Virus record (IMG/VR): IMGVR_UViG_3300006917_000131 | Span: 1 to 26,060 of that record | Origin: a virus | Length of the DNA stretch: 26,060 bases | Direction: 5' to 3' (one strand) | Part shown: one piece after another, positions 8,196-23,344 of the stretch | Layout: every line of letters begins with the position of its first letter | Position numbering within the stretch: position 1 is the stretch's first letter | Made by a program: the position numbers and the translations under genes | Notes under the pieces: model-generated | Told to the model about the DNA's origin: nothing | The model's database searches: none | The model's input: only the letters and a program-made list of their open reading frames with translations

Positions 8196-11100
8196 TTATC
8201 TATTCTGTGGACGGTTCTTGAATCTCTTGCCGATTCTCTTGGACCGCTTGGCCTTGCGAGAGATCATTCTTCTCTTCCCCTTGAGACGACGTGCCGCCCG
8301 CTTCAGTTTCATCTTTTTACGACGGAGAACTGCCGCAGGAACCTTTACTACCCGTCCCTTTTTATTGATACGATAGCCCTTGCGACCAGCGGTCTTGCCT
8401 CGCTTGACCTTTCCCCCACGGACACGAATGGTTCTTTTTATCCTTTCATTCAACTGTTCGTAGTTTTCTACAAGAATTCCACCGTCTTCTTCAACAATGA
8501 AATCGGCTCCGCTTTCCATGAGTGATTCGACTAGAGCATTATACTCAGAGTCGGTCATTTCGGAAAGGTCGTATTCTTCCCATTCCTCAGTTTCTTCATG
8601 TATACGATTAATGAAAGCATTCTCTATGATTGCCCGTACTGCTTCATCTAGTTTCTCTTCGTTCATTGCTTTCTCCTTTGATTTTTCTGTTTCTTCCTTG
8701 GTTGTTTTCTTTTTTCCTGGATCCTCTCCACTTGTCTGTTGCGATGCGCTTTTTCTTTCAAGCCCCAACTCATTACCCCAATCGTTAGATTCGTCTAGCA
8801 GGTCTTCAATATCCATGTCAACTTTAATTACAGAAATTTTTGTTGGGTTATCTCCTTTACCCATCATAAGATCCGCAACCGCCACAGCAGCCCATCTGTG
8901 ATGTCCATCCAAAACATACCCATCTCTGGAAACAATCAGAGGAGCCGTTAATGATTTTTTAGCCTTTGCTGCCTCGTTGTCGTTCATTCCCAACTCTTTT
9001 GGACGCATTAGAGTATTAGCCATGCCAAGAACTTTAGCCCCAACAAGTTGGTTTTGTGTGGCTTTCAGTTCTACAGAATCCATACTTTCTCCTTCACTAA
9101 ACTTTACGCCTTTGCTCTTCAGATGATCGAGGAATAGTTGTTCGGCATTAAATTCTGTTTCTGGTTTGAACTTTTCTCCCTTGGCTTCGGCTTGTGCTTT
9201 TCGTTTTTCGTTTTCTTGTGCCAGCAATTCTGCGGCACGACTACCAGGTATTACGGTTGTTTTTAATTGAGGCATATTATCTCTAGGAATACCCAAATCC
9301 GCACCGCAGAACAAATTGGTTCCTGGTATTGACACCGTACATATTTCAAACTCTGGATCTTTGCCTATGTTTTCGCCTCTTCTCTTTCTTTTTTCTCGGT
9401 CTAAAATAACCTCAGCAAGGGAAAACATCCGAGTTGCAACCTTTTTCTCTAATTTAGGATTTGTCCCAATGGCTTCTTCTTTAGAATCAGGACCGTCAAG
9501 ACCTGCTTCTTTCGCCGTTTGTCGATCTTTTCCGGTGGGTTTTATTTCCTGTGTTTTTTTAGCCGCTTTTCCTATTTCTGGATTTTCTCTTCCAGTAATT
9601 TTACCCCCTCTAGACCCTTCTACTTCTCTTTTCTTTGCCAGTGCGTCTTCTTTGCTTATTTTTCCAGCAGCAAAAGCCTTGGCAAGTGCTTCGGCATCAG
9701 GGTACAGTTTCTTATTGTAATATACCCTTTCTCCGTTTTTATTCTTGCCCGCCCAAGACTGTCCAGTGGACGCTTCCCAAGCCGTACCTGGCTTGTGTCT
9801 ATCGGCTTCTAGCAGTTCTAAGACTCGTACCACTTGGTCTGTGGATTCTTTCACAGATTTCTCCTTTTTTCTCCAGCCTCCACCTTGACCCTTGTACCAT
9901 TTTGCTGCCCAAGCATTAGCATACGCACTGGGATACACATCGAATGTGGATTTGGCTTTTGCTACGGCTTGTGCCCATAGTCCAGGATCTGTTGGTTCGT
10001 TTTCTTGTGCCTCAGAAAGTATATCGTCCACACCCTTGTCGGCTCTCCACATCTGGCAGGACCAATACCGTGCTTTCCACTTTGGTCCCACATCGTCATC
10101 ACATGAATGGCGTGACCGGAACGCTTTCAGGCGATCGGGGTTATCTCGCTTGATCTCCATGTTGGGGTCGCCGAAACGAACCTTCACAACATTTCCGTTG
10201 TCGTTCTTTACATAAACCGCAAACTTTTTCTTTTCGCCTGGTGTACGGAACGGCTTGTTCAGTTTCTTGCCTTCGGTTTCTCCGCCCTCTGTCTCTTCGT
10301 TCATGCCTAGTTTTGTCCGAGCCAAGCGAGCCAGTTCAGGCAACTTGATTTTTCCATCGCTTTCCGCCCACATTTCCCACATGGTACGAGTCATTTTGTT
10401 CAGGGCTTTTTGGTCATTTGCTAGTTTGGCTGGCAGCGCTTTTTGGGCAGCATCGAGCAAACGGGGATCTCCCATTTTCATGGTTGCTTCGTTCATTCCT
10501 TCTTTTACATCCAACACCCGTTGGCGGATAGCGTCATCACCCCAATAGATGTTCATTACATCCACATCATCAATCTGAACTTCCTCCCCACCTTTTTTAC
10601 GAGGGTGGAGTATGATGTAGTATCCCTTGGTGGCATAACCTTGGTCGTAGTACTGAAAACGCTTGAGTCTGCCGTCTACGGTTTTACGGTCTTTGGTGAT
10701 GATACGAACAGGCTCAGGACTCTTGTGCTGTTTGCTCATCCGTTCCCAGTCCTGCATACGGAAACCTTCGTTCACATATTCCGTCTCTTCCTTCACCTCT
10801 TTCCATGTGTCGCCAATCTTTGCGCTGGGCCAGTTTGCCACGAACACCTTTGGCTTTGACTTATCCTTGGGCAAGTATCCAGTATAGCCGCCGTACTTCT
10901 CGTCGGCCAACTTGCGGAGTTTTTTGGAACTGGTGGATTTTGCCACAACCTTTCCGCCCACAATCAGGGCATAGTATTCTACACCCCCACCGCTCTTGAA
11001 CACTTCGGTGATCTCTGTTTCTTCCTTAATCATCTTACCAGGAATTCCCATCATTTTGAACGCTCTCTGTATGGAGATATTCTTTTTTTCACTAGTCCCA

Positions 11101-11591
11101 CCCACAGACCAGTTGTGTGGTGCGGACTTGGATTTTGGTGGATTGTCGTAATCATACACCGTAAACACCAGTCCAGCAGAATTAATGAAACCCCATTCCA
11201 TTGTGGTCTGGTCGTTTTCGCTGTCTTCGTAATGTGGGCGACCCAGCACTTTGACCAACTGATTTACACTTACTCCCTCAAGCCGACCCACTCGGAAAGA
11301 AGGCAGATTGCCGTCCCATTTTTTGAAACCCATTTCTTTGACGGAGATTGCTTCATTGATTTCAACTTCTTCTTTTTTCATTTTAGCCTTTACTGCTTTT
11401 GCGTATTGTGGGTCTTTCATCATGGAATCAAAATCTCTACCCATGAGTTCCTTGAACTCTTCTTTGGTCATGTCTCCACGGAGCACCTGTAGCATGGCAT
11501 CCACGCCTGCGGAATAGGCACGACGACCAGCCCGTCCCATATGGGACCAGCGGGTGACTTCATCCAGACTAAACTCGTGAAAACCTTTCAT
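8196..11591 (-). CDS. Giant putative head-packaged polyprotein with serial protease sites
   Basis: The 1131-residue start (M-K-G-F-H-E-F-S-L-D-E) resembles T4 capsid-targeting leaders. Sites of the T4 prohead-protease type, [hydrophobic]-x-E, recur at module borders: LDE 11, INE 80, ITE 196, VNE 275, MNE 368, MNE 432, LSE 527, LLE 595, LDE 983 and LNE 1049, usually followed by Ala, Val or Gly and preceded by an acidic K-E-E-T-E linker. Recognisable modules are K-F-A-V-Y-V-K-N-D near 456-515, S-A-Y-A-N-A-W-A near 555-575, a W...YY module at 600-645, and a ParB/Srx-like domain at 841-937 with G-H-H-R-W (896-900). Residues 1051-1131 are Arg/Lys-rich and probably bind DNA. It is the last gene of the operon. 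The ATG at 11591 is chosen over an upstream frame start for the leader. Cleavage and packaging are inferred. Confidence 0.82.
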   Translation of the reverse strand: MKGFHEFSLDEVTRWSHMGRAGRRAYSAGVDAMLQVLRGDMTKEEFKELMGRDFDSMMKDPQYAKAVKAKMKKEEVEINEAISVKEMGFKKWDGNLPSFRVGRLEGVSVNQLVKVLGRPHYEDSENDQTTMEWGFINSAGLVFTVYDYDNPPKSKSAPHNWSVGGTSEKKNISIQRAFKMMGIPGKMIKEETEITEVFKSGGGVEYYALIVGGKVVAKSTSSKKLRKLADEKYGGYTGYLPKDKSKPKVFVANWPSAKIGDTWKEVKEETEYVNEGFRMQDWERMSKQHKSPEPVRIITKDRKTVDGRLKRFQYYDQGYATKGYYIILHPRKKGGEEVQIDDVDVMNIYWGDDAIRQRVLDVKEGMNEATMKMGDPRLLDAAQKALPAKLANDQKALNKMTRTMWEMWAESDGKIKLPELARLARTKLGMNEETEGGETEGKKLNKPFRTPGEKKKFAVYVKNDNGNVVKVRFGDPNMEIKRDNPDRLKAFRSRHSCDDDVGPKWKARYWSCQMWRADKGVDDILSEAQENEPTDPGLWAQAVAKAKSTFDVYPSAYANAWAAKWYKGQGGGWRKKEKSVKESTDQVVRVLELLEADRHKPGTAWEASTGQSWAGKNKNGERVYYNKKLYPDAEALAKAFAAGKISKEDALAKKREVEGSRGGKITGRENPEIGKAAKKTQEIKPTGKDRQTAKEAGLDGPDSKEEAIGTNPKLEKKVATRMFSLAEVILDREKRKRRGENIGKDPEFEICTVSIPGTNLFCGADLGIPRDNMPQLKTTVIPGSRAAELLAQENEKRKAQAEAKGEKFKPETEFNAEQLFLDHLKSKGVKFSEGESMDSVELKATQNQLVGAKVLGMANTLMRPKELGMNDNEAAKAKKSLTAPLIVSRDGYVLDGHHRWAAVAVADLMMGKGDNPTKISVIKVDMDIEDLLDESNDWGNELGLERKSASQQTSGEDPGKKKTTKEETEKSKEKAMNEEKLDEAVRAIIENAFINRIHEETEEWEEYDLSEMTDSEYNALVESLMESGADFIVEEDGGILVENYEQLNERIKRTIRVRGGKVKRGKTAGRKGYRINKKGRVVKVPAAVLRRKKMKLKRAARRLKGKRRMISRKAKRSKRIGKRFKNRPQNR

Positions 11592-11595
11592 CGGA

Positions 11596-12036
11596 TTATT
11601 TCTTTCCCGTAGTTGCATGTCGGCGGGCGGCACGTTCTGTCTTGTGAACCTTCAGGGTTTTGCCGGACTTGCTCACAACCGCTGGACCCTTGGGGTGGTG
11701 AAGATTGGTGAACAGGGGCTTTGCCTTTTTAGGCTTGGCGGCGGTTGCTTCTTCCATTTGACCAAAGAAAGTGTCCCAGTAGTCGTACACGATTTGAGCC
11801 GTGTCTTCACCCATCAACTTATCGTCCAGTCCGTGTTTCGCCAATATCTTTCCGATAAGAGGCAGTTTACGAACTCCAGTAGTCTTTTTGTCCCCCATTA
11901 TCGTCCTGATCTTGGCGACCGCTGGCTTCGGAATGGATTCCATAAAGTCTTCCAGTGCGGCTTTCATTCCGCCCTCTTGGAGTTCCACTGCTTCCTGTAT
12001 CTCTTGCTTGAACTGTTCGAATGTTTTTCGGCTCAT
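11596..12036 (-). CDS. Putative internal head protein with capsid-targeting leader
   Basis: This is a 146-residue protein. The start M-S-R-K-T-F-E-Q-F-K-Q-E-I-Q-E-A matches the T4 capsid-targeting pattern (K-T-Y-x-x-F...E then A), with candidate cleavage after E15 (IQE) or E21 (LQE). The middle (residues 30-95) is helical and includes a K-L-P-L-I-G-K-I-L-A-K-H-G-L segment. The C-terminal 45 residues are basic with T-E-R-A-A-R-R-H-A. The ribosome site AAAGGAAAAG fixes the ATG at 12036, 13 nt after the preceding stop. I do not recognise a family; head packaging is inferred from the leader. Confidence 0.75.
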   Translation of the reverse strand: MSRKTFEQFKQEIQEAVELQEGGMKAALEDFMESIPKPAVAKIRTIMGDKKTTGVRKLPLIGKILAKHGLDDKLMGEDTAQIVYDYWDTFFGQMEEATAAKPKKAKPLFTNLHHPKGPAVVSKSGKTLKVHKTERAARRHATTGKK

Positions 12037-12049
12037 GTCTTTTCCTTTG

Positions 12050-14290
12050 TTACTCTTGGTTTTTCTCTTTGCCTTGGCAGTGTGCCCGTTGTGAAAAGCC
12101 CTTGGGGTTCTCGCAATCAATGGACTGCTTGTATTTTTTGGACCATGCTTCCTTGATCTTATCTATACCCGTGGAAACACGAATGGGCTCCGCTCCGCCT
12201 CCAGGCTCGCCCTCACCCTTTTTAGCCATGCCGCCCTTCCGCTGGGCAGCCCGCTTACGACGGACAAAAGAGGAGATGCCCTTTTTGCCTAGTTTTTGGG
12301 CTTTTTGTTTGGACAGACATGCCGCATACGCTTCACCTTCCGCAGCATCGCCACACTTGCCGATCCGTTCACCCTTGGTATTGTACCGATCCCATCCTGG
12401 TTCTTTGGTTGCGCTCTCGTCATTGAACCATTTACCCAAGCCTGATTTGGCATACACCTTTTCCTGTAGTGCCCGTTCCCGCTTGGGGGAGTACTGTATG
12501 TGCTTGGTGCGGATACGGACCTTGCCCGGCACGGCCAATCGCTTGGCGTATTCCAAGTTTAGTTTGTTGTCATCATGGAACTCTATATCGTTGTAGCCTT
12601 GGTCGATCTGATCCTGTATCCAGTCGGCTTTGGCCCGAGCCACACCTTCATGGGAGCCACCAGATTTTGAACCTATGGCTACAACATCTACATCAATACC
12701 CATGCTTTCCAGGTACTTCTTTGCCGTATCTCCGTAGTTACGACCTGTAAGCACCACGGCTTTTCCGCCTCGACCAAGAACACTCCGCATGATTTTCAGA
12801 GTCGCAGGAATAGGACTGGCTTTTACACCCTCTTTGCCCAACTCAAATCTCTCATTGCCCTTGAGAGAGTAAGACTTGAATTCGTCTGTGGAGACGGTCG
12901 TGATAAGTTTACCTGTTTTTTTATCTACCACACGCACCCGAGCGGTGTCTACAGCAAGCGTATCATCAAAATCAAATATCCATAGGGGTTTACGAGCATC
13001 AGCCAACTCGGTAATTTCACTGTATACCCGTTCGTACAGGAATTGCTCAATGTCTGCGAGTGCTGCCATCTCTGCTTGAACTGCTGTCTCTGGTTTCTTT
13101 CGCTTAGGTCTTGTGCCTTTTTTCTTTAAATTAGCATACCGCTGTGCTTCGGTTTCTGTTTTTTGATACCGCAGTTGATCGGTGGAACCAACTTTTCCTG
13201 TCTTCTTTTTTCCGGCGGTCATTTTACCCGTGTTTCTTGCCGTGCCTGGTTCTTGATCTCTTGCCACGGCAGGTTTGTTTATTACTTTACCTTTTCTGGC
13301 GTATTGCTTTGCTGCTTGTTCATTATCAAAATAACGGACCCCAACACGACCATCTCCGACCACACCTGTTCTCTTGTTCTTGGCCCCAAACAACCCCTTG
13401 GAACTTCTCCAAGTTTCTCCCGGCTTGGCATTGGCAGCAAGATATTTTGCCTTGCTTTTTTCTGGCTCGGGTGATCCCTCTTCTGGTTTGGGTGCACTAG
13501 GTTCTGGTTCACCTTCAGTTTTAGGTGTGGTGGGTGGAGTAGCCCCTGTCTCTGCTGCGGCGGCTGCTTCTATTTCTTTAACTTTGTTCTTTATTCTAGT
13601 ATCTGCGGCCTTTTCTTCTGCTGATCCTTTTTTAGTCTTTCCTTTTTCTTTCGTCTGTACAGCAGACAATTCCATAGTCTTTCCCCAATTAGGATCGTTT
13701 TGACTCATCCAATTGGAGTTCTCTGTCTGAGCAGCAGAGATACGATCACTTCGCCTCCGCAGTTTTTCCAAAAGTTGAGGATCAGGACTGCCAGTGGCTT
13801 CGGCGTCTGCTATTCTTTTCTTGATCCGTTCGCTGTAACTCCGGATCAATTCTCCATGCGCTCGTCTGTCGTAAACATCATCACCAGGTTTATACTTCGC
13901 AAAATAATCCGAGTGCATGGAGTCTATGGCATCAAGATCTCTTAGGTTTTTTGTTCGTCTATCACTAACGGAAGTTAATTCACTTTCAATACCAGGAATT
14001 AGAGAGTCAACTCCCGCACGCTTTGCTGCTTCAAGATCTGCTTCCAGTTCTTTCTGTTTGGCAGCAAGCATGGTTTCGTTTGTCTCTGCTCCACGCATGG
14101 CAAGTTGTAGTTTTTCCCGAGCGGCACACGGGCAGTCGCCGCTCATCTTTACCGTTGCCTCCACCAAAACCTCCGGCATTTCCACGGGAAAACTACCACG
14201 GGACTCCATGAGTCCTAAAGTTTCCATTACATCAAAGAGGGTTTCAACCTCTTCAAGCAACTGATCGAGATTTTGAACTTTGGCTGACAT
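12050..14290 (-). CDS. Multidomain HAD phosphatase protein, putative internal head protein
   Basis: This is a 746-residue protein. The N-terminus (residues 1-45) is acidic and helical with LLE and LVE-A sites (cleavage candidate after E44). Residues 60-280 are coiled-coil-like and then Pro/Glu-rich. Residues 289-336 carry the W...YF...A module shared with four neighbours, and ITE lies at 426-428. A complete HAD domain follows: motif I F-D-F-D-D-T-L with D440 and D442, motif II V-V-L-T-G-R with T515, K554, and motif IV D573-D574. Then come a Cys-containing segment (W-D-R-Y-N-T-K-G near 633, G-K-C-G-D, C-L-S) and a basic stretch, ending S-I-D-C-E-N-P-K-G-F-S-Q-R-A-H-C. The HAD family removes phosphates; the substrate is unknown. 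The ATG overlaps the previous stop (TAATG). Confidence 0.85.
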   Translation of the reverse strand: MSAKVQNLDQLLEEVETLFDVMETLGLMESRGSFPVEMPEVLVEATVKMSGDCPCAAREKLQLAMRGAETNETMLAAKQKELEADLEAAKRAGVDSLIPGIESELTSVSDRRTKNLRDLDAIDSMHSDYFAKYKPGDDVYDRRAHGELIRSYSERIKKRIADAEATGSPDPQLLEKLRRRSDRISAAQTENSNWMSQNDPNWGKTMELSAVQTKEKGKTKKGSAEEKAADTRIKNKVKEIEAAAAAETGATPPTTPKTEGEPEPSAPKPEEGSPEPEKSKAKYLAANAKPGETWRSSKGLFGAKNKRTGVVGDGRVGVRYFDNEQAAKQYARKGKVINKPAVARDQEPGTARNTGKMTAGKKKTGKVGSTDQLRYQKTETEAQRYANLKKKGTRPKRKKPETAVQAEMAALADIEQFLYERVYSEITELADARKPLWIFDFDDTLAVDTARVRVVDKKTGKLITTVSTDEFKSYSLKGNERFELGKEGVKASPIPATLKIMRSVLGRGGKAVVLTGRNYGDTAKKYLESMGIDVDVVAIGSKSGGSHEGVARAKADWIQDQIDQGYNDIEFHDDNKLNLEYAKRLAVPGKVRIRTKHIQYSPKRERALQEKVYAKSGLGKWFNDESATKEPGWDRYNTKGERIGKCGDAAEGEAYAACLSKQKAQKLGKKGISSFVRRKRAAQRKGGMAKKGEGEPGGGAEPIRVSTGIDKIKEAWSKKYKQSIDCENPKGFSQRAHCQGKEKNQE

Positions 14291-15348
14291 TACTTGAGTA
14301 TCTTCTTGAATCCTGCGACTGCGGAGTTGTAATCATCGAGAGAGACTGGAGACTTCTTTCCTGAACTCTCCAACTTGAGTCTTCCTTGTAGACGATAGCC
14401 CACAGGACGAATACCTGTGTTTCGGGAGCCACCAGCACCAGGACGCATTTCGATGTCTATTTGCCCTTCAAGCATGGGAACTCCCAAGCCAAGGACATCG
14501 ACTCCGGTATGAAGCAATCCAATGCCACCGATCTGAATGTAGTGTACATTCTTTTTGGTATAATGTTCACGAATCCACCGTGAATCAAATCGGAGTTTTT
14601 TGTTTGACGGAATGACATATCCCAACTCCACAGCCCTTTCCCAATCCTTTGTCTTTACATTCAGCGGGAATCCCGTTACATCCTTGTAGAAAGGATCAGG
14701 CAGGTTTGCGAAGTGGTCGATGAGAGCATCAAGCCACCGCATAATTGGTTTCAGTGCTTCGTAGAAGATAGGCACATCGTCAGGATTGATCTTTTCCCAG
14801 TCAAACTTGTCCATTTTTCCAATCTCTGGATCTGAGAGCAAGTCTTCACGCTCGTAGCCTACAGAGGTTCCGCCCATCTGTGCTTTCGCATTCATTTTGA
14901 TTTCCATGTTTACCTGCCTGCCGTTTATTTGGAAAGACATGTCACCCGAGCCGACATTACTGAACGCACCACCAGCAGTTTCGAGTTTTCTGAAACCAGA
15001 GAACTTTTTCTCCAACTGGTCAATTACCTTTTCTACTTTCTTTTCGTAGGCAACACCACCTGCTCCAACGCTCTCTTCGATACGGCTCTGTGATGGTCTG
15101 CCCTTCATGTATTTGTGTACAGATGAAAGGTAATCGGCAGACTTGGTGATCTTGGATTGGACCCATGCGTCTAGATCCGTATCAGAGTCAATCATGTCAG
15201 CAATGGCTTCGGCATCATCAATGATGGAACGGAGTTCGGTACGGGCCATGTCTGCCTCGTCGTTTCCCACATCAAAGCCTTGAACCTCTGATTTTTCGGT
15301 CAAGACTTCAACTATTTTTTTATAAATATCAGACTTTTCTTTATCCAT
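14290..15348 (-). CDS. Putative PD-(D/E)XK nuclease, candidate head-packaged protein
   Basis: The first 92 residues are helical, with D-A-W-V-Q-S-K-I-T-K-S-A-D-Y-L near residue 60, a motif I recall from other marine T4-like phage proteins. Candidate protease sites are LTE 16-18 and IEE 90-92. The next part has the residue order of PD-(D/E)XK nucleases: E102 in a helix, G-S-G-D with D136, M-E-I-K with E149 and K151, and Q157. The remaining 195 residues contain beta-rich segments (Y-I-Q-I-G-G-I-G-L-L) that I cannot assign. The ATG lies 8 nt inside the upstream gene, whose end supplies CTGGAGG as the ribosome site. Nuclease activity is inferred from motifs only. Confidence 0.75.
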   Translation of the reverse strand: MDKEKSDIYKKIVEVLTEKSEVQGFDVGNDEADMARTELRSIIDDAEAIADMIDSDTDLDAWVQSKITKSADYLSSVHKYMKGRPSQSRIEESVGAGGVAYEKKVEKVIDQLEKKFSGFRKLETAGGAFSNVGSGDMSFQINGRQVNMEIKMNAKAQMGGTSVGYEREDLLSDPEIGKMDKFDWEKINPDDVPIFYEALKPIMRWLDALIDHFANLPDPFYKDVTGFPLNVKTKDWERAVELGYVIPSNKKLRFDSRWIREHYTKKNVHYIQIGGIGLLHTGVDVLGLGVPMLEGQIDIEMRPGAGGSRNTGIRPVGYRLQGRLKLESSGKKSPVSLDDYNSAVAGFKKILK

Positions 15349-16150
15349 TTGTGGCCTCCAGAAACTCTAAGAATCCCATTCTTTGTTTTGTAGTTCTATT
15401 CTCATTATGTATTGTTTGAGCCTCACCGAACACCTTTGGCTTTCCGAGCAAGATCTTCTCATGGGGATGACCACCAATAAGTCTGTTATACCAACCCATA
15501 TAGCCTGTTCGCCCGTCAGGATGCCGTCCGTGCCAGTCAATTTTCTTGCCCGTCAAAACCTCCTGTGCCTTGGATTTTGATCCAACGGTTGGAGATCCCT
15601 TGGACACCAAAATGTCCACTATTTTTCCTGAAACCTCGGCATAATTGCCACGGCTTCGAAGTAGACTTGCGGCAAGATCCAACATCTTTCGCTTGGCTTC
15701 TTTGGTCCCGTCCGTTGCCATTGTAGTGAGTTTTGTCCCAAATCTGGTATCCTTGCCCATCACTACGGCATCGGGGTCGGGGTCAGAGTCTGTGTTGACT
15801 AGTTTAATATCGGTATTGTCGCTGGGAACCGAGTCAGGATTCGGATAGTCGTGGTGTCCACCGATGGCAGCATAGGTGGCTTTTATCATATCAAATATGC
15901 TCTTTTTGATCCCACGGTCTTTCACCACTTCATCACGGTCAAGAACTTTCCACTTGTCTTTTTCTAATTTTGTGATCTGTGTTTCGGCGGACACTTCAGG
16001 CTTTTTCTCTTCTCTGCCGCTGGCCCATGCTTCGGCACTCTGGCGATCCGAGAAGTATTCGTACTGGCCCCCACGCTTGCCACGCCACCTCCCACCGTCA
16101 ATCTGAACGGCAGATCCGTCTCGTTGTTTTTCCCGTGGTTCTCGTTTCAT
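15341..16150 (-). CDS. Protein with W...YF module and C-terminal targeting-like sequence
   Basis: This is a 269-residue protein. Residues 14-45 hold the short module shared with four neighbours (G-G-R-W-R-G, Y-E-Y-F, S-A-E-A-W-A). Residues 95-238 form a globular region with striking motifs: V-N-T-D-S-D-P-D-P-D-A-V near 118, R-F-G-T-K-L-T-T, R-G-N-Y-A-E-V-S-G near 167, and H-P-D-G-R-T-G-Y-x-G-W-Y followed by G-G-H-P-H-E-K. The last residues (M-G-F-L-E-F-L-E-A-T-N-G) look like a capsid-targeting leader placed at the C-terminus. The same DNA carries the ribosome site of the next gene, so chance is possible. The start has only a weak ribosome site, 3 nt after the previous stop. No enzyme family is recognised with confidence. 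Confidence 0.75.
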   Translation of the reverse strand: MKREPREKQRDGSAVQIDGGRWRGKRGGQYEYFSDRQSAEAWASGREEKKPEVSAETQITKLEKDKWKVLDRDEVVKDRGIKKSIFDMIKATYAAIGGHHDYPNPDSVPSDNTDIKLVNTDSDPDPDAVVMGKDTRFGTKLTTMATDGTKEAKRKMLDLAASLLRSRGNYAEVSGKIVDILVSKGSPTVGSKSKAQEVLTGKKIDWHGRHPDGRTGYMGWYNRLIGGHPHEKILLGKPKVFGEAQTIHNENRTTKQRMGFLEFLEATNG

Positions 16151-16153
16151 TGC

Positions 16154-16849
16154 TCAAGACCCCAAAAACTTTTCTATCTCTGCGATTGTGTTCAACTCCA
16201 GAGGTTCGGTGAACAGCATGTCCCGTGGACGGTTTTTGTTGAACAGCATTACATCAATGCTCTCTGGTTGCCGTACCACGCTGATATATTCCCGTATCAC
16301 TGCCTTGAGTGAGTCCTTTCGGGACGATCCGAAACTCGCATTGGTCTGTATGCCTATGCCTGGATTTCCCTGAATGGAAAAATACACCCAACCCTTTTCC
16401 GTGGCAAGCACAGACACCGAGGGCATGGTGTCGTAGTATCCGTCTTTCATTATACGCATCACATTCTCGTAATCGTCTTGGTTTTTCTTGAACACACGGC
16501 TGGCAGCATAGGTGTATCGCATGGACTCCGTGGCCTTCCATTCGTCAATGGCCTTACGCATTTCCTGTTCACTGATGCCAAACTTTTCAGGATTCTTGAA
16601 TATCTGTGTTACATGGTAGTTTTTCGAACTCCATCCGAATGTGATGACATCCTTTACGGGATGCCACCAGCCGTACTGACCCCCGGTGCTGGCCCATACC
16701 CGCATCTCCCGTTCACGGGTTCGTCCCTTTTCCTTTGCCAATACCTGTTGTGATATGCGAGCCATGTTCGCCTTCGCCTGTTTTATCTGTGTGGGCGAAA
16801 GTCGAAAGGCTTTAGTTTCGGTAAGGTATTGTAGGAATGTTAGTCGCAA
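16154..16849 (-). CDS. Putative internal head protein, paralogue of the gene at 19822-20526
   Basis: The 231-residue protein starts at TTG 16849, with GGAG 5 nt upstream inside the previous gene. This start is chosen because it gives a capsid-targeting-like leader, M-R-L-T-F-L-Q-Y-L-T-E then T, with cleavage expected after E11. It shares F-R-L-S-P-x-Q-x-K-Q-A-K-A-N-M (residue 15 on), G-W-W-H-P, an R-K-A helix, S-R-x-S-L-K-A-x-x-R-E and a terminal E-x-F-L-x-S with the gene at 19822-20526. A central beta-rich part (V-L-A-T-E-K-G-W-V-Y-F-S-I) is present in both. The function is unknown. Duplication within the same cluster suggests the family is useful to the phage in more than one form. Confidence 0.78.
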   Translation of the reverse strand: MRLTFLQYLTETKAFRLSPTQIKQAKANMARISQQVLAKEKGRTREREMRVWASTGGQYGWWHPVKDVITFGWSSKNYHVTQIFKNPEKFGISEQEMRKAIDEWKATESMRYTYAASRVFKKNQDDYENVMRIMKDGYYDTMPSVSVLATEKGWVYFSIQGNPGIGIQTNASFGSSRKDSLKAVIREYISVVRQPESIDVMLFNKNRPRDMLFTEPLELNTIAEIEKFLGS

Positions 16850-16851
16850 TT

Positions 16852-17070
16852 TTACTCCACATACTTTTTGAGTTTGCTGTAGTAGTCAGGCACTTCTTCC
16901 AAATGATCCATAGCAATTTTGCGTGCCTCGGCATCGCTCTTGGTGTGCTCGTGTTCCACTTTGATGCCCATGTCTAATTGTCGTTGGATGTCCGAAGGCT
17001 CGACCCCGTGCTTTTTGGCAAGGGATTCCACCGTCCGCATCTCACGAATATACTTACGCCAAGGAATCAT
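16852..17070 (-). CDS. DUF5661-like small protein
   Basis: The 72-residue protein has K-K-H-G-V near residue 19, M-G-I-K-V-E-H-E-H-T near 34-43, and I-A-M-D-H-L-E-E-V-P-D-Y-Y-S-K-L near 52-67. The V-E-x-E-H...H-L-x-E-x-P-D-Y-Y pattern is that of the DUF5661 family of bacteria and phages, which has no known function. GGAGG precedes the ATG by 6 nt, and the start overlaps the previous stop (ATGA). Confidence 0.75.
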   Translation of the reverse strand: MIPWRKYIREMRTVESLAKKHGVEPSDIQRQLDMGIKVEHEHTKSDAEARKIAMDHLEEVPDYYSKLKKYVE

Positions 17071-17282
17071 TCTTCGCCTCCTTTGTTTCCCAAGACCTCG
17101 TTCTTGTAGGCATTTGCCACCGAATCAAGTACCTCTTGGTGTGTACGATTCGTGGGTGTGGGGTTTTTCGGTCCCTCCACTGGTTTGCCCTGTAGAATGT
17201 CTTCAATCATCCGTGTGGTTTCGCTGTTGGCGAGCCGTTCCAGTTCATTCCGATTGTCTGGTGTATTTCTCTGTACAGTCAT
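17067..17282 (-). CDS. Small hypothetical protein
   Basis: This is a 71-residue hydrophilic, mostly helical protein (N-E-L-E-R-L-A-N-S-E-T-T-R-M near residue 12; V-L-D-S-V-A-N-A-Y-K-N-E near 51). No family is recognised. It is coupled at both ends by ATGA overlaps, which supports its being a real gene of the operon. Confidence 0.65.
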   Translation of the reverse strand: MTVQRNTPDNRNELERLANSETTRMIEDILQGKPVEGPKNPTPTNRTHQEVLDSVANAYKNEVLGNKGGEE

Positions 17283-17437
17283 TTCACTTCCGCCTTTCGT
17301 TGTTTGGTTTCATCGCCCTTTACAAAGGGATTGTCTTTAACTTTTTTTCCACCCTGTAGTCCACGTCGTCCCCGTTCATAGTTTCCCTTGTCCACAGTGA
17401 ACGAAAAGTCGATGAATGAAATAGTCTGCCGTTTCAT
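17279..17437 (-). CDS. Small basic hypothetical protein (52 aa)
   Basis: The ATG at 17437 overlaps the stop of the 213-residue gene (ATGA), and its TGA overlaps the next ATG in the same way, so it fills the gap exactly. The protein starts M-K-R-Q-T-I-S-F-I-D-F and continues with G-R-R-G-L-Q-G-G-K-K and D-N-P-F-V-K-G-D. It is strongly basic and has no recognised family. The double coupling is the main evidence that it is expressed. Confidence 0.68.
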   Translation of the reverse strand: MKRQTISFIDFSFTVDKGNYERGRRGLQGGKKVKDNPFVKGDETKQRKAEVK

Positions 17438-18075
17438 CGGGGCCGCTTCCACTCATAGCCAGGCTTGGCCTTGCCTGTGTATTTCTGATATTCAGGACTG
17501 TCTTTGCCGTGTACTGCCAGGATTTCTGCCCCGTCCTTTTCCAGGTCTTTCACATACGCATCGAGATGCCGAAGGAACTCGTAGCGGTTTTCCGTTGTCT
17601 GTAGTGTGGTGGGTGGAAACAGCACCGCAAATTGCTGACCGCCCATGCGGAAAACTACAATGGAACGAAAAGCGTACTTGGGGTCTTCTTCACTGGCTTT
17701 CTTTTTGAGCGGGAACATTTTGTAGACATCCACACGCTCTTTCAGCATCCGTGAAGAGATCACATCCCATAGGAGCCGCTTTTCGTCCTTGTCTCCCATA
17801 AGCCTGTAGGTTTTTTCATTCCATTGGAACTCCCCGTCTGAACTCCAGATGGCATTCCATACGGGTGTAGGTATTTTGCCGTACCGTTCTTCCACGGCAC
17901 GGATCTTTGCCTCGAAAACAGCACTGTCCGTGGCAAGACCTTCAGGACGATCAGGATACGCTTTCTTGCCGGCGAGCGTCCACTCCTTGCGGGTGGAATC
18001 CGTTAGGCGTGGCACACTCTTCCAGAACTGTTCAAACTCTGGGTCTATAGGTTTATCCGTTTTGCTGCTCGCCAT
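17434..18075 (-). CDS. Hypothetical protein (213 aa)
   Basis: The frame extends 5' to 18135, but ATG 18075 (M-A-S-S-K-T-D) is preferred because it lies just after a GGCGGAGGG purine tract inside the end of the upstream gene and the longer form has no ribosome site. The protein is a mix of helices and strands with W-N-A-I-W-S near residue 72, M-F-P-L-K-K-K near 120, and a strand F-R-S-I-V-V-F-R-M-G-G-Q-Q-F-A-V-L-F near 135-152. The tail is basic and Pro-containing (W-K-R-P-R). No family is recognised, and no capsid-targeting leader is visible. Confidence 0.75.
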   Translation of the reverse strand: MASSKTDKPIDPEFEQFWKSVPRLTDSTRKEWTLAGKKAYPDRPEGLATDSAVFEAKIRAVEERYGKIPTPVWNAIWSSDGEFQWNEKTYRLMGDKDEKRLLWDVISSRMLKERVDVYKMFPLKKKASEEDPKYAFRSIVVFRMGGQQFAVLFPPTTLQTTENRYEFLRHLDAYVKDLEKDGAEILAVHGKDSPEYQKYTGKAKPGYEWKRPR

Positions 18076-18220
18076 TCCCTCCGCCCTTCTCCCGTTTGGC
18101 ACGGACCCGTTCGTTGTTGGTCTTTCGATTAACATAACGAATCCATGCTTCGTCCAACCGATGCCGATGGGTCATGCCGAAACCACCCTTGCCTTTACCT
18201 TTGGTGTTGTTGCTTGCCAT
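18053..18220 (-). CDS. Small basic protein (55 aa), first gene of the operon
   Basis: The ATG at 18220 is preceded by ACAGGAGCATCGTT, a good ribosome site. The protein begins M-A-S-N-N-T-K-G-K-G-K-G-G-F-G-M-T-H-R-H-R, continues with D-E-A-W-I-R-Y-V-N-R-K, and ends in a Gly/Asn/Gln-rich tail. It overlaps the next gene by 23 nt. The high Lys/Arg/His content suggests nucleic-acid or protein binding, but no family is recognised. Confidence 0.68.
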   Translation of the reverse strand: MASNNTKGKGKGGFGMTHRHRLDEAWIRYVNRKTNNERVRAKREKGGGNGEQQNG

Positions 18221-18239
18221 AACGATGCTCCTGTAAATG

Positions 18240-18464
18240 TTATGTATGGATACGGTTTTCCCGTGTGTGCTTGGTGAGATTGTATGTTTCGTTCCGATGG
18301 AGTTTCAACTGGTCCGAGCGGTAGTGTCGGATGGCTCCACCTTCACACAGGGCCACGCACCACACATCGTTTTCCCATGTTCCTCCGTCCCGCACATATA
18401 CCGCATATGCCTCGTCCCCATCCACGGTCACTACAGGAATGGGATTCGTAAACTCGTGAATCAT
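18240..18464 (-). CDS. Small conserved-looking phage protein (74 aa)
   Basis: The frame runs from 18554, but ATG 18464 is chosen because GGAGGA stands 8 nt before it. The protein starts M-I-H-E-F-T-N-P-I-P-V-V-T and has Y-A-V-Y-V-R-D-G-G-T-W-E-N-D-V-W near residue 20, R-H-Y-R-S-D-Q-L, and a polar basic end. I recall short proteins with this opening in T4-like phages of marine bacteria; no function is known. A CATAAATA late promoter lies upstream at 18526-18533. It may belong to the operon that continues to 8196. Confidence 0.72.
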   Translation of the reverse strand: MIHEFTNPIPVVTVDGDEAYAVYVRDGGTWENDVWCVALCEGGAIRHYRSDQLKLHRNETYNLTKHTRENRIHT

Positions 18465-18525
18465 GGTGTATTCCTCCATTAGTATCAGGCTAAAACCCCA
18501 CGGGTTTCGGCCTTGCTTCCGAAGG

Positions 18526-18533
18526 TATTTATG
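18526..18533 (-). promoter_or_regulatory. T4-type late promoter
   Basis: CATAAATA lies 61 nt upstream of the 74-residue gene and may drive the whole operon ending at 8196. Confidence 0.55.
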
Positions 18534-18597
18534 CCCGCTCTGGTCTACATACAAGACCCGAACATGGTGTTCAGGGAACTATACAAAAGGAAAGAAT

Positions 18598-18780
18598 ATG
18601 CTCATCAACTGGATCAAAACTTTCGTAGCGGATCAACGTGGTGCGGAGAGCACCGAACTCGCCATCACCACTCTTGTCGTGGCAGGCGGAGCCGTCGCTG
18701 GATATACCAGCGTCAAGAACAAGATCGGTGACAAGACCGACGACCTGCTCGGCAAACTGGACGAATCCACAGCCGACTGA
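18598..18780 (+). CDS. Flp-type pilin-like small protein
   Basis: This is a 60-residue protein. It starts with a short basic/hydrophobic segment (M-L-I-N-W-I-K-T-F-V), then D-Q-R-G-A-E-S-T-E, which resembles a class III prepilin peptidase site: cleavage after G would put Glu at position +5 of the mature form. A hydrophobic helix follows (L-A-I-T-T-L-V-V-A-G-G-A-V-A-G-Y), then a polar tail. This is the layout of Flp/Fap pilins of the Tad secretion system. AAAGGAAAG precedes the ATG by 3 nt; longer upstream starts lack a ribosome site. The gene is alone on the plus strand within minus-strand genes and has its own terminator, so it looks like an independent cargo gene. No clear promoter is seen. 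It could instead be an unrelated small membrane protein. Confidence 0.78.
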   Translation: MLINWIKTFVADQRGAESTELAITTLVVAGGAVAGYTSVKNKIGDKTDDLLGKLDESTAD

Positions 18781-18803
18781 TTGGAACATAACTTAAAGAA
18801 ACA

Positions 18804-18836
18804 GGGCTGGCCTTTGAGCCAGCCCTTTTCTATTTT
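18804..18836 (+). terminator. Rho-independent terminator after the pilin-like gene
   Basis: GGGCTGGC pairs perfectly with GCCAGCCC across loop CTTTGA and is followed by TTTTCTATTTT. On the minus strand the same stem is followed by TGTTTCTTT, so it may also slow transcription from the right. Confidence 0.9.
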
Positions 18837-18860
18837 AGTAATTTAATACTATTGATAGTT

Positions 18861-19286
18861 TTATGTTTCCCAATCTTCTCTACCAGAAGGGTTTGGCTCC
18901 GGATACTCCCGTCGCCCTCGCCGGTGGTCTTCTTGTTCCTTTTCTTTTTGTTTTCTTTTTTCTTCTTCTCTTTTACGTCTAATCGCATCTGCCCTTGCCT
19001 GATCTCTGCCTCTCGCCGCTTCTCGTTCGTTTTCTGCTTGTGCTTGGTTTGATGCTCTGACCCATTCTATTGCTTCATTTTTATCGTCAAAATATCTTAT
19101 TTCTTTTGTTTGTCTGTGCATTCCCCCGTACCCTGTGGGGGTTTCCCAGACTGTTCCTGGTTTTCGGGTTTTTGGGTCTGTTTTTTTCTCTTTGTTTGCT
19201 TTTCTTTTGGCAAAAGCCCGCTTGATTGCGCCAAAAATTTCGTTAATTTGTTCTACTTCTTCTTTGAACTGTCTGTAGTTTTTCAT
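18861..19286 (-). CDS. Putative internal head protein with W...YF module
   Basis: This is a 141-residue protein. The leader M-K-N-Y-R-Q-F-K-E-E-V-E-Q-I-N-E then I matches T4 capsid-targeting sequences; cleavage is expected after E16. Residues 42-79 carry the shared module (K-P-G-T-V-W-E-T-P-T-G-Y-G, R-Y-F, A-I-E-W-V). The rest (80-141) is a highly charged helix rich in Arg, Lys and Glu. The ribosome site ACAGGAGACACGGG is nearly identical to that of the next gene upstream, and the first codons are also similar, which points to duplication. The function of the module is unknown. Confidence 0.78.
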   Translation of the reverse strand: MKNYRQFKEEVEQINEIFGAIKRAFAKRKANKEKKTDPKTRKPGTVWETPTGYGGMHRQTKEIRYFDDKNEAIEWVRASNQAQAENEREAARGRDQARADAIRRKREEEKRKQKEKEQEDHRRGRREYPEPNPSGREDWET

Positions 19287-19301
19287 CCCGTGTCTCCTGT
19301 G

Positions 19302-19793
19302 TTAATCGTCGTCACGATTCATTCTCCGTCGAATCCGTTGACGTTCGGCCTCCCATTCAGCGTGTTGTTGAAGTTCTTTTCGCCAACTTTGTATCCATTT
19401 TTCTGCTGCTTCTCTAGTTTTAAAATACTCTATCATCAATTCCCCATGATGCTTTGTGGGAGCGGCTGCTCCAAACCCTGTAGGTGTTTTCCAGATTTCG
19501 CCCATTCTTCTTTTTTGTTTGTCCTGTGAAATTTGTGCTTTATGTTTGGCAATCTCGTTTCTCTTTTTTCGCCTCTGTAATGCTTGCTTGTATCTTTCTT
19601 TTCTTCCTATATTTCTCTCGATCTTTCTGGCTAATCGTTTCACTCCTCGTTTTATGAAACGAGGTGTAAGTGCAGATACTGCTTTTGCCACCGGTACGAT
19701 AACCGTTGTGGGGTCACCGATAGGTATTCCCGATGGGAGGCTTGCCTCATTCAGACTATCTATTTCTTCTTTGAACTGTTTGTAGGTTTTCAT
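19302..19793 (-). CDS. Putative internal head protein with W...YF module, paralogue
   Basis: This is a 163-residue protein. The leader M-K-T-Y-K-Q-F-K-E-E-I-D-S-L-N-E then A is close to T4 M-K-T-Y-Q-E-F-I-A-E then A; cleavage is expected after E16. A Gly/Pro/Val segment (17-43) is followed by a very basic helix (44-95) and the shared module at 97-136 (M-G-E-I-W-K-T-P-T-G-F-G, E-Y-F, A-A-E-K-W-I). The end is Arg-rich. The late promoter CATAAATA (19826-19819) lies 25 nt upstream, overlapping the stop of the preceding gene. The basic region suggests DNA binding inside the head, which is an inference. Confidence 0.78.
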   Translation of the reverse strand: MKTYKQFKEEIDSLNEASLPSGIPIGDPTTVIVPVAKAVSALTPRFIKRGVKRLARKIERNIGRKERYKQALQRRKKRNEIAKHKAQISQDKQKRRMGEIWKTPTGFGAAAPTKHHGELMIEYFKTREAAEKWIQSWRKELQQHAEWEAERQRIRRRMNRDDD

Positions 19794-19818
19794 CCCGTGT
19801 CTCCTGTGATAATCTATC

Positions 19819-19826
19819 TATTTATG
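19819..19826 (-). promoter_or_regulatory. T4-type late promoter
   Basis: CATAAATA contains the TAA stop of the upstream gene and precedes the ATG at 19793 by 25 nt. Confidence 0.6.
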
Positions 19827-20526
19827 AGTTCAAGAACCGCTCGATGGCTTCACGGTTTCGGATCAAGGTAAACGCTTCCTTGCCGCTGTCCGTGACCCCG
19901 ACCTCGATCTGGAACATCTCAGGCTTTTTCTCTGCGGAATCCAGTGTATCAAGAATCTCTCGGAACAGGGCTTTGAGGGAACGACGGCTTCCAGAGAACG
20001 CCCCGTCCATACGGATCATCCCGGATTTGCGGATCATAACCCACCCATTAGCATAGGCAAATTTGGTAAGGGTTGGGTCGGCGTCAATCTCACCGTCCTG
20101 TAAACGGTGTATAGTGGTTTCAACTTCCTCTTCCCATTTAGCCGAACCACGGGAGATGCCCACGGTGTACTCTGTGTAATCTTCCGCTGCCTTTCGGACC
20201 TGTTCTTTGGTCACTCCGAACGTGGCAGGAAAACGGGCAATCTGGTTTACATGCTGATTGCTGCCTACACGCCAGCCGAAAAGGTGGGCAGGCTTGTCGG
20301 GATGCCACCACCCCGTAATCCGATCACCGCTCAGATCCGCCCAATCAATATCAGGTTTTCGCTTGGGCTTTCCCTTGCGCTTTTCCCGATCGAGGACTTC
20401 CGCTGCGATACGGGACATGTTGGCTTTGGCCTGTTTTCTTTGGGCAGGAGACAGCCGAAAAGCCCGGGCTTGTGCGGCACGGGCTTCTCTCAGGGTTTCG
20501 GTGATGAACTGGAAAAGCAAGGACAT
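19822..20526 (-). CDS. Putative internal head protein, paralogue of the gene at 16154-16849
   Basis: This is a 234-residue protein. The leader M-S-L-L-F-Q-F-I-T-E then T puts the candidate cut after E10, the same position as in T4 internal proteins. It shares F-R-L-S-P-x-Q-x-K-Q-A-K-A-N-M (residue 23 on), G-W-W-H-P, V-R-K-A, and a C-terminal S-R-R-S-L-K-A-L-F-R-E and F-L-N-S with the paralogue. The ATG follows the previous stop directly (TGAATG). The core looks like a mixed alpha/beta domain, and no known family is recognised. Confidence 0.78.
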   Translation of the reverse strand: MSLLFQFITETLREARAAQARAFRLSPAQRKQAKANMSRIAAEVLDREKRKGKPKRKPDIDWADLSGDRITGWWHPDKPAHLFGWRVGSNQHVNQIARFPATFGVTKEQVRKAAEDYTEYTVGISRGSAKWEEEVETTIHRLQDGEIDADPTLTKFAYANGWVMIRKSGMIRMDGAFSGSRRSLKALFREILDTLDSAEKKPEMFQIEVGVTDSGKEAFTLIRNREAIERFLNS

Positions 20527-20826
20527 TCAGAAGCCCATCGAATCCATCCACAGCATCATTGCCGCATCATGGTAATGTCCAGCCTTGGCCTTGGCCTGAG
20601 CAAGGGGCAGTTGGGCTTCCATCCACTCAATGTGATTCTGTTTTTCTTTGAGTTCTCTTTTTTCAGATTTCATAATTTCTTTCCATCTTTTCACTCTGTA
20701 TTTGTAGTTTTCCTTGTCCTTGCTAAGAACCAGTTCTTTTGCTTGCTGTTGCTTGTTGGGGAGCATTGGTTTTTTGTCTTTGAGTCTCAGTTTTGCTTCT
20801 GTCAACATTTGCTTGAATGTTTTCAC
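20527..20826 (-). CDS. Putative internal head protein (99 aa), GTG start
   Basis: GTG at 20826 is preferred over the longer frame because GAGAGG precedes it and the product starts V/M-K-T-F-K-Q-M-L-T-E then A, almost the T4 capsid-targeting leader, with the cut expected after E10. The rest is a single long charged helix rich in Lys and Glu (residues 15-80), ending A-A-M-M-L-W-M-D-S-M-G-F. It lies 34 nt after the 151-residue gene and abuts the next one. Confidence 0.75.
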   Translation of the reverse strand: MKTFKQMLTEAKLRLKDKKPMLPNKQQQAKELVLSKDKENYKYRVKRWKEIMKSEKRELKEKQNHIEWMEAQLPLAQAKAKAGHYHDAAMMLWMDSMGF

Positions 20827-20860
20827 TAGTCTGCCCTCTCTCTTGTAGTTTGTTGAACCC

Positions 20861-21316
20861 TTAGTCGCTGTCGAACGCCCAAGCCCCCAGGTCATCAACT
20901 GCCGATTCGATGGTATCGTAGTCGCCTTTCTCGATCCCCTTCTTGCCTTTGGCTTCAGCATCTCTGAGCCATTCCTTGTGCCATTTCACGGCATCGGTTT
21001 CGGTGTAGAGCCTATCTTCAATATTCGCCTTGCCTTTGGGTGTCTTGGCACTGGCGAGTTTTTCCTTGAGTTTGACTACCAGACGTTCCATCTTGGCTAT
21101 TTTCTTCTTGAAGATCTTGACCATATTGGCGAAGTCCTTTTTTACATAAGCCAGATCCTCTGCGCTCGGGGCTTCGTCCTCGACCCACTTTGCTTCTTCG
21201 ATTTCAGCGTTGGTACGGCGTGGCCCGCCGGCTGGTCCTGATGCCGAACCCTTCGCCTCGTCCAAAATCTTTTGCGCCGATTCGATCAGCCCCTGGTATT
21301 CTTTGAATAGTTTCAT
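20861..21316 (-). CDS. Putative internal head protein (151 aa), coiled coil
   Basis: The ATG at 21316 has ribosome site CAGGAGCACGGG, matching the leaders of the genes at 19793 and 19286. The protein starts M-K-L-F-K-E-Y-Q-G-L-I-E-S-A-Q-K-I-L-D-E then A, with LIE (10-12) and LDE (18-20) as candidate cuts. Residues 60-105 form a Lys-rich coiled coil (M-V-K-I-F-K-K-K-I-A-K-M-E-R-L-V-V-K-L-K-E-K-L), followed by an acidic end (D-D-L-G-A-W-A-F-D-S-D). It is the first gene of this minus-strand group, diverging from the plus-strand gene at 21400. No family is recognised. Confidence 0.75.
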   Translation of the reverse strand: MKLFKEYQGLIESAQKILDEAKGSASGPAGGPRRTNAEIEEAKWVEDEAPSAEDLAYVKKDFANMVKIFKKKIAKMERLVVKLKEKLASAKTPKGKANIEDRLYTETDAVKWHKEWLRDAEAKGKKGIEKGDYDTIESAVDDLGAWAFDSD

Positions 21317-22498: not shown

Positions 22499-23341
22499 TC
22501 AGTAGTTCATTATAAGAATTTCTGTTCCCTTGCTTGACTGCCGGTAGTCTGACCTGTTCCCGCTTCGTGTAGCCGCCGAACGGTACACGCTCTGCCGGTG
22601 CCAGCGGAACCGGTCTTCAGGATACAGGGTTCGCAAATCATCAAATTCATAATAACTCAGGGCAAACTTTCCCTGAATGCTCCCAAGGGTTCGGGCCAGG
22701 GTTTCGTGCTTTTCCCGTGGAAATTCTTTGCTGTAGTAGAACTCCTTGCTCCAGTACGGGGGATCGGCATAAAAGAATACCCCATCCCCATCGTGCTTGC
22801 GGATCAGGTCTTCACAGTCCAGATTCTCCACTCCCGTGGTCTTCTGTAGCCGCTCCAGAATTTCAGGTTTTTCTAGTTTACGCCGAAGGGTGTCCCACTT
22901 GGACGGATACTTGCCCCCTGCCTTGGTTTCGGTAAAGTACGGAACATTCGTGGCACTCAGAGGCGTGCCTGCGAAAACCTGGGTCTGTAGGTACAGGTAC
23001 TTGGTTGCCAGATCCAGATTGCCCAAGGCCATGTCCCGGTGCCAGCCTGTGTCCACGAACAATTCCCTTTGGTACGCCTTGTACCGTTCAGGATCGCTTT
23101 TGGGCGTGGCATTCATCTGCCGGAGCAGACCCGAGGGATCGGCACGGAAGCACTCCCAAACATTGGCGAGCAGGGGATTGTAATCGTTGTAGATCCGTTC
23201 GACGGCTCCGGCCACCTTGGGGCTCTTTACGAGTACCCAACCTGCTCCGCCGAAAACCTCCACATACTTGGTGAAGCCCACGGGAAACAGTGGGTCCATC
23301 CAACCCACATGGTGTGATTTACCGCCAATGTATGGAAACAC
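22499..23341 (-). CDS. dam: D12-class N6-adenine DNA methyltransferase (Dam-like)
   Basis: This 280-residue protein is close to the usual Dam length. Start P-Y-I-G-G-K-S (3-9), SAM motif I V-E-V-F-G-G-A-G (28-35), motif II Y-N-D-Y-N-P (51-56) and catalytic A-D-P-P-Y-W (192-197) are all present in the Dam (alpha) order. It transfers a methyl group to adenine N6, possibly at GATC as in T4 Dam, though the site cannot be proven from sequence alone. The start is 3 nt after the stop of the gene at 23345, and both are driven by the promoter at 24429-24456. It converges with the plus-strand gene ending at 22482. Confidence 0.92.
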   Translation of the reverse strand: MFPYIGGKSHHVGWMDPLFPVGFTKYVEVFGGAGWVLVKSPKVAGAVERIYNDYNPLLANVWECFRADPSGLLRQMNATPKSDPERYKAYQRELFVDTGWHRDMALGNLDLATKYLYLQTQVFAGTPLSATNVPYFTETKAGGKYPSKWDTLRRKLEKPEILERLQKTTGVENLDCEDLIRKHDGDGVFFYADPPYWSKEFYYSKEFPREKHETLARTLGSIQGKFALSYYEFDDLRTLYPEDRFRWHRQSVYRSAATRSGNRSDYRQSSKGTEILIMNY

Positions 23342-23344
23342 CCG

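Follow-up and report, generated by a model that had tools for sequence, protein, structure and literature searches.

A cluster of candidate head-packaged cargo genes with T4-type leaders and predicted polyprotein chains in a T4-like phage fragment

The internal proteins IPI, IPII and IPIII and the Alt protein of phage T4 have a capsid-targeting leader, cut by gp21, with aromatic residues near positions 4 and 7 and an [LI]xE site near position 10; in our reading of the T4 genome IPII and IPIII both start with MKTYQEFIAE/A (a slash marks a cut site, here and below). Mutational work on MKTYQEFIAE assigned targeting to residues 4 and 7 and processing to residues 8 and 10 (PMC9026906). Here we analyzed an IMG/VR fragment of 26,060 bases (the window, meaning this whole stretch of DNA), in which 17 minus-strand genes between positions 8196 and 21316 form a cluster rich in such leaders. 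We give a probability of roughly 70% to the reading that this cluster encodes head-packaged cargo which is cut by a prohead protease of the gp21 type, is partly made as polyproteins and is probably injected with the DNA. The window also encodes gp32 (PF08804, E 7.7e-48) and gp59 (gp59 domains at E 2e-13 and 4e-6), and by these core genes its phage is classified as T4-like, as are the carriers of the T4 internal proteins. None of the isolated phage records is close to it at the DNA level.

Related features are known from further systems. Polyvalent proteins (Iyer et al. 2017, PMC5512222), which include DarA and DdrB of P1, are also multidomain, have a predicted delivery alongside the DNA and contain a ParB-like domain, and their authors liken them to polyproteins; release is ascribed there to embedded peptidase domains, whereas Pfam and PHROGs scans of the window chain proteins found no peptidase domain and their sites fit a prohead protease. 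The inner-body and ejection proteins of phiKZ and SPN3US (PMC5694885) resemble the cluster in being a large set of head cargo, in their S77-family protease and in having several sites per propeptide, but these propeptides comprise 100 or more residues with A/S-x-E sites as opposed to the T4-type leaders of 10–16 residues found here, and chains of separately occurring modules are unreported there. T4 gp22, gp67 and gp68 likewise have multiple gp21 sites per chain, although this scaffold is degraded to peptides and does not consist of chains of folded modules. The virion enzymes of the cyanophages S-CREM2 and S-SCSM1 have T4-type leaders and contain small modules that also occur in the window, but only a few such proteins are present per genome.

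To define leaders we used a rule derived from T4 (an aromatic residue or Leu near position 4, an aromatic or hydrophobic residue three positions later, then [LIVM]xE) together with corrected start codons. Such a leader is present in 9 of the 17 cluster genes and in none of the 14 other window genes (Fisher p=0.0012), and shuffling of residues 2–25 gave a mean of 0.48 expected leaders (P=2e-4). An earlier sequence-only reading of this DNA had listed eight leader genes, all of which lie on the minus strand and indeed carry the leader under this single rule; the ninth, at 16852–17070, had not been listed. The looser rule of that reading ([LI]xE within the first 21 residues) gives a weaker separation (12/17 against 4/14, p=0.024). 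The window leaders are looser than those of T4: the fixed-position rule M..[FY]..[FYLM][LI].E had no match in the window in a scan made with three gene starts wrong or absent, and the corrected leader of gene 20527, MKTFKQMLTE, satisfies the fixed positions by eye. The suggestion that over 13 kb are devoted to such cargo does not extend to every gene, since the region 17067–18464 and gene 15341 lack a T4-type N-terminal leader. Apart from the chain gene 8196, the leader genes (named by their first coordinate) and one adjoining module are as follows.

11596..12036, minus strand: leader gene 11596, MSRKTFEQFKQEIQE/AVELQE/G, start at 12036
16154..16849, minus strand: leader gene 16154, MRLTFLQYLTE/T, TTG start, paralog of 19822
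16852..17070, minus strand: leader gene with DUF5661 (E 1.2e-15), MIPWRKYIRE/M
17067..17282, minus strand: stand-alone module, fused behind IKE/G in the related locus L216
18861..19286, minus strand: leader gene 18861, MKNYRQFKEEVEQINE/I, W-G domain
19302..19793, minus strand: leader gene 19302, MKTYKQFKEEIDSLNE/A, W-G domain
19822..20526, minus strand: leader gene 19822, MSLLFQFITE/T, paralog of 16154
20527..20826, minus strand: leader gene 20527, MKTFKQMLTE/A, GTG start at 20826
20861..21316, minus strand: leader gene 20861, MKLFKEYQGLIE/S, ATG at 21316

As judged from gene order and shared gene families, the cluster is shared by four close relatives. One of them, the 61-kb contig G001 with the loci L084 and L165, has a gp32 with 80% and a gp59 with 62% protein identity to those of the window; three further contigs (L216, L218 and L219) were located via their cargo domains. 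In L165 the fixed-position rule is matched by 7 of 19 genes (shuffle 0.0035), and a slightly wider rule is matched by 3–4 of the 16–18 genes per locus in L216, L218 and L219 (shuffle means <0.01). Among whole genomes, for which genes were predicted with our own simple finder applied to 20-kb pieces, the exact rule fits 3 of 279 genes in T4 (IPII, IPIII and a gene of 54 amino acids), as against nine leader genes in 13 kb plus embedded sites in multi-module chains in the window; the counts for HTVC008M, C48C1 and DSL-LC02 are 0/207, 3/209 and 4/241.

Published virion proteomes allowed us to compare leaders with virion presence. For the T4-like cyanophage S-CREM2, 52 virion-detected proteins are given in Table 3 of its description (PMC10665884), and leaders were identified among the annotated genes using a rule fixed beforehand. 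The three leader proteins, the S-adenosylmethionine (SAM) hydrolase ORF6 (MKDFDSFLEE), the kinase ORF14 (MKRFDAFLTE) and the cytidylyltransferase ORF154 (MKNFSSFLTE), all appear in that table (p=0.0023 among non-structural proteins), and a rule widened after the data had been seen gave five of six (p=1.8e-4). The chain proteins ORF137 and ORF160, the two in which the module signatures that we had searched for occur, are listed there too. NMNAT (MKSFLQFLKE/A) is labelled as a virion protein in the S-SCSM1 paper (PMC9602691), as is the module chain ORF29, and YPSAYA, DUF6321 and other module families of the window occur in virion-detected proteins of the two phages. These proteomes show the presence of equivalent proteins only, and not their cleavage. 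Both papers propose a packaging of some such proteins, and the parts available mention no leader or cleavage rule (PMC10665884, PMC9602691). In the open-access literature, to which our search was confined with subscription journals outside its scope, capsid targeting sequence and cyanophage were found together only in the Black review. Taking the exact positions in the relatives, the virion detection in S-CREM2 and the shared module families together, head packaging via T4-type leaders, which the sequence-only reading had put forward, is the best reading of the cluster.

The sequence-only reading had overlooked a second feature, the polyprotein architecture. Cargo domains that are fused in window proteins of 746, 352 and 1131 residues exist as separate, mostly leader-bearing genes in the relatives. 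The chain proteins combine HAD, ParB-like and other modules, and the features concerned are these.

8196..11591, minus strand: gene 8196, polyprotein-like chain of 1131 residues, leader MKGFHEFSLDE/V, about 28 internal [LIVM]xE sites; its modules match phrog_7595, phrog_27331 and phrog_2859 in PHROGs
10047..10268, minus strand: FGDPNM module (phrog_7595) in 8196, with a 72% identical homolog in L216 within a different protein
9858..9998, minus strand: YPSAYANAW module (phrog_27331) in 8196, between LSE/A and VKE/S, a confident AlphaFold2 domain
8730..9080, minus strand: DGHHRW module (phrog_2859) in 8196, ParB-like from its DGHHR motif by eye
8445..8684, minus strand: acidic stretch of 80 residues (net -19) in 8196, ahead of the basic tail
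8196..8444, minus strand: basic tail of 82 residues (net +40) of 8196, downstream of LNE/R
12050..14290, minus strand: chain gene 12050 (746 residues) with N-terminal part, W-G domain, HAD phosphatase-like domain, SGLGKWF module and SIDCxNPKGFSQ module
12482..13006, minus strand: HAD domain in 12050, joined via SEITE/LA, stand-alone in L165 and L219
14290..15348, minus strand: fusion gene 14290 (352 residues), a helical module of 85 residues and a domain of 260 residues with the joint RIEE/SVG
15341..16150, minus strand: cluster gene 15341, without N-terminal leader, C-terminus leader-like (MGFLEFLEATNG)

The true start of gene 8196 is the ATG at 11591 and not the GTG at 11633. The acidic N-termini with [LI]xE sites that had been described for 12050 and 14290 are present as well, and the relatives retain the sites there.

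Comparison of the fused and the stand-alone forms shows where these sites lie. The HAD domain follows MKSFSRYITE/LASPRK in L165 and MKPFSQYITE/LASPRK in L219, and in 12050 it follows the internal YSEITE/LADARK, while the C-terminal domain of 14290 is preceded by SRIEE/SVG in the window, by MKTFKSYLAE/SVG in L165 and by MKLFKEYITE/TVG in L216. The TDSRMYG module is the reverse case: L165 and L219 have it as a gene with a leader (IAE/TDSRM), and in L216 it is fused as PLHE/TDSRM. A Nudix protein of L165, L216 and L219 has a complete second leader inside (IVLFKDFLVE/A, IVSFKTFIAE/A), which precedes a domain in common with window gene 15341; in L165 this domain is the second half of the fusion, behind IVLFKDFLVE/A. 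Between L216 and the window the order of the SIDC and SGLGKWF modules is reversed, with a site at every join. The DGHHRW module is a stand-alone gene in L165 (33% identity, E 8e-9), DUF5661 is also embedded as a module in a cyanophage chain protein (L174), and the basic-tail unit of 8196 forms a gene of its own with a leader in L216 and L084, where the acid-site-base layout is the same.

Over 17 fusion junctions of the clade, [LIVM]xE is found within ten residues upstream in 15 (background 0.127), with a nominal p of 4e-12 that overstates the significance, given that the sequences are related and that the junctions were compiled after the pattern had been noticed; as controls, LxD was found at one, LxQ at none and LxK at five of these junctions. 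A cleaner test is offered by the module M1 (PTNPxLW...VYPSAYA), which was taken wherever present in the loci and the reference genomes analyzed. Its fused copies have a site in the 13-residue linker in 17 of 18 distinct cases, compared with 7.7 for shuffled linkers (p 5e-4) and 0/18 for LxD. Of its 18 N-terminal copies, the 15 that are listed all lack a site and start directly as M[A/S]xx-PT(N/K)P, as in MASPK-PTKPALW. The alternative that survives best, and which we nevertheless regard as unlikely, is that the leaders do target the head and the long proteins stay whole, as polyvalent multidomain proteins that are injected intact, the LxE being a by-product of E-rich linkers. The linkers are in fact E-rich, polyvalent proteins commonly consist of one multidomain chain (PMC5512222), T4 gp21 spares some LxE in that the portal gp20 is unprocessed (PMC5694885), and cleavage in the window phage is a prediction. 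Against an intact chain speak the specificity of the joins for LxE over LxD and LxQ, the lack of a site in the listed stand-alone M1 copies, the exact alignment of cut residues between leader form and fused form for the 14290 C-terminal domain and for HAD, and the complete internal leaders within the Nudix fusions.

The kind of cargo bears on a further alternative. The HAD domain of 12050 matches phrog_415 (E 2e-9) and a Pfam family only below its cut-off, Nudix (E 4e-15) and GNAT (E 1.5e-5) domains are found among the cargo of the relatives, and the cargo content differs strongly even among close relatives, unlike that of core assembly genes. These enzyme folds, together with the fact that the published virion examples are enzymes as well, make it quite improbable that the proteins belong to the prohead core or scaffold in the manner of T4 gp22, gp67 and gp68, chopped by gp21 in head assembly and not delivered as effectors, even if T4 core proteins have many gp21 sites and are cut to short fragments (PMC5694885) and a basic tail with an acidic prodomain could serve as an internal peptide that condenses DNA. 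That the leader is a common N-terminal amphipathic helix with a different role in proteins outside the virion is hardly credible given its association with virion detection in S-CREM2 and the experimental basis of the T4 IPIII rule (PMC9026906), even though head location in the window phage is inferred and some leader proteins (S-SCSM1 ORF30, S-CREM2 ORF175) have no virion label.

For the proposed head-packaged cargo, targeting, cleavage, injection and cargo activity in the window phage are predicted from sequence, and the following model is suggested. The leader, in which aromatic residues around positions 4 and 7 are followed by [LIVM]xE, would dock the protein on the prohead core, an S77 protease of the gp21 type would cut after the E and free the cargo, and the freed cargo would remain in the head and probably enter the host together with the DNA. 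The products of 8196, 12050 and 14290 would be chains of small cargo modules in which every join has retained the cut site that once belonged to a leader, and the same protease cut would separate the modules in the prohead; since the site is retained at the joins, one leader could load several modules. In 8196 the acidic stretch probably neutralises the basic tail until the cut at LNE/R releases this tail to bind packaged DNA. More generally, we find it reasonably probable that cargo polyproteins arranged like beads on a string are made in this group of T4-like phages, with one leader and several effector modules, cut by the prohead protease during maturation, whose modules shift between stand-alone leader genes and chains with the cut site kept; such a phage could thereby swap its injected kit via gene fusion. 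If the analogy with IPI and Alt holds, the obvious role of the injected proteins would be in early counter-defence or in taking over the host. PADLOC returned no match for the nine cluster proteins tested.

Several points weigh against this model, besides the inflated significance of the junction list. A gp21 gene, looked for also beyond the window as the sequence-only reading had advised, was found neither in the 26-kb window nor in the close-clade contigs of 37–92 kb; the portal gene gp20 and the major capsid gene gp23 were likewise not found in these contigs, so that the absence of gp21 from them is uninformative, and gp21 is present in six of six complete T4-like genomes. S-SCSM1 ORF30, mentioned above, has a strict leader and yet lacks the virion label. 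The 15341 junction has no site, the junction of module M2 in 8196 has its nearest site only further upstream, and E-rich linkers raise the chance of an LxE. AlphaFold2, run with shallow alignments, gave weak models with a mean predicted local distance difference test (pLDDT) score of 59.5 and 56.8. In the 14290 model the pLDDT is <50 at residues 76–99, a segment that includes the predicted site at 92, and the 8196 model has three well-modelled segments (residues ~10–85, 370–430 and 530–575) flanked by the predicted sites E94 and E100, E446, E541 and E596; over the whole 8196 protein an avoidance of confident segments by LxE is not significant in a hand count. Foldseek found no significant match for the two models, which leaves a D...ExK pattern seen by eye as the basis for a nuclease fold of the 14290 C-terminal domain.

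Some further observations concern the cargo and its genes. A domain of ~40 residues, PGxxWxTxxGxG...RYF...A..W (W-G domain), is present in the 18861, 19302, 15341, 12050 and 8196 proteins and also in L216 and L165. An AxxLGLxxDGHGxWYD..VAKT domain lies close behind the leader in cyanophage NMNAT, kinase and the Cas9-annotated ORF12 (L226, L227, L222 and L212); identity of the W-G domain with this GHGxWYD domain of virion-detected cyanophage proteins was ruled out (hhalign probability 0.1). ORF12 of S-CREM2 (L222 7704–10313), which was detected in virions, has a leader-like RFASFMAE/A at about residues 18–25. At the C-terminus of 15341, MGFLEFLEATNG with the stop behind it overlaps the start codon of 14290–15348, and it could have been left behind when a fusion was split, or could act by translational coupling. 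The paralogs 16154 and 19822 have no relatives in IMG/VR. The proteins at L165 8052–8786 and at L216 1463–2869 and 7010–7687 have YRG and SWST-like motifs and by eye resemble ADP-ribosyltransferases, as in T4 Alt; Pfam did not confirm an ADP-ribosyltransferase for L165 8052–8786 and L216 1463–2869. DUF5872 and DUF5754 occur in these phage chains. Both are reportedly mentioned in papers on algal viruses (PMC12085832, PMC12220804). For DUF5661, DUF5872, DUF6321, DUF6267 and the modules YPSAYA and FGDPNM, the open-access literature searched yielded no paper on phages. Two fibre-like genes are inserted in the middle of the cluster in L165 (3705–7407, plus strand), and a small open reading frame within the window cluster (18598–18780, plus strand; ESTELAITTLVVAGGAVAGY) resembles a Flp-type pilin. 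The T4 late promoter TATAAATA has 15 matches with at most one mismatch where 10.6 are expected, which is not above chance.

Outside the cluster, tRNA genes for Gln, Ser, Ala and Leu are located at 1032–1572, where a tmRNA call overlaps two of them and is probably spurious. A glycine-rich protein with GVTFGT repeats (3710–6175, plus strand), of which a relative has a version of 1437 residues, is probably a fibre, and at 22499–24415 a D12 adenine methyltransferase adjoins a gene of 356 residues with an ADILFV...VSVKS motif, possibly as a restriction-modification pair. The gp59 is 100% identical in the contigs L081–L083, and L082 matches the window over 6,260 bases without a mismatch and continues past its base 1. 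This left extension of the window phage (L082 8082–11359) encodes a nucleotidyltransferase chain, in which [LIVM]xE sites are numerous, and a DUF6267 protein that bears the leader-like MTISFSDYLESKTLNE/A.

If the proposed reading is true, a short sequence rule would predict which uncharacterised proteins are carried in the heads of T4-like phages, and it could be tested at once against virion proteomes already published. Many orphan domain families, among them DUF5661, DUF5872, DUF6321, DUF6267 and the modules YPSAYA and FGDPNM, would then be placed as early-acting head cargo, and T4-like phages of this kind would represent a polyprotein strategy of a bacterial virus in which the capsid maturation protease is used for cargo release.

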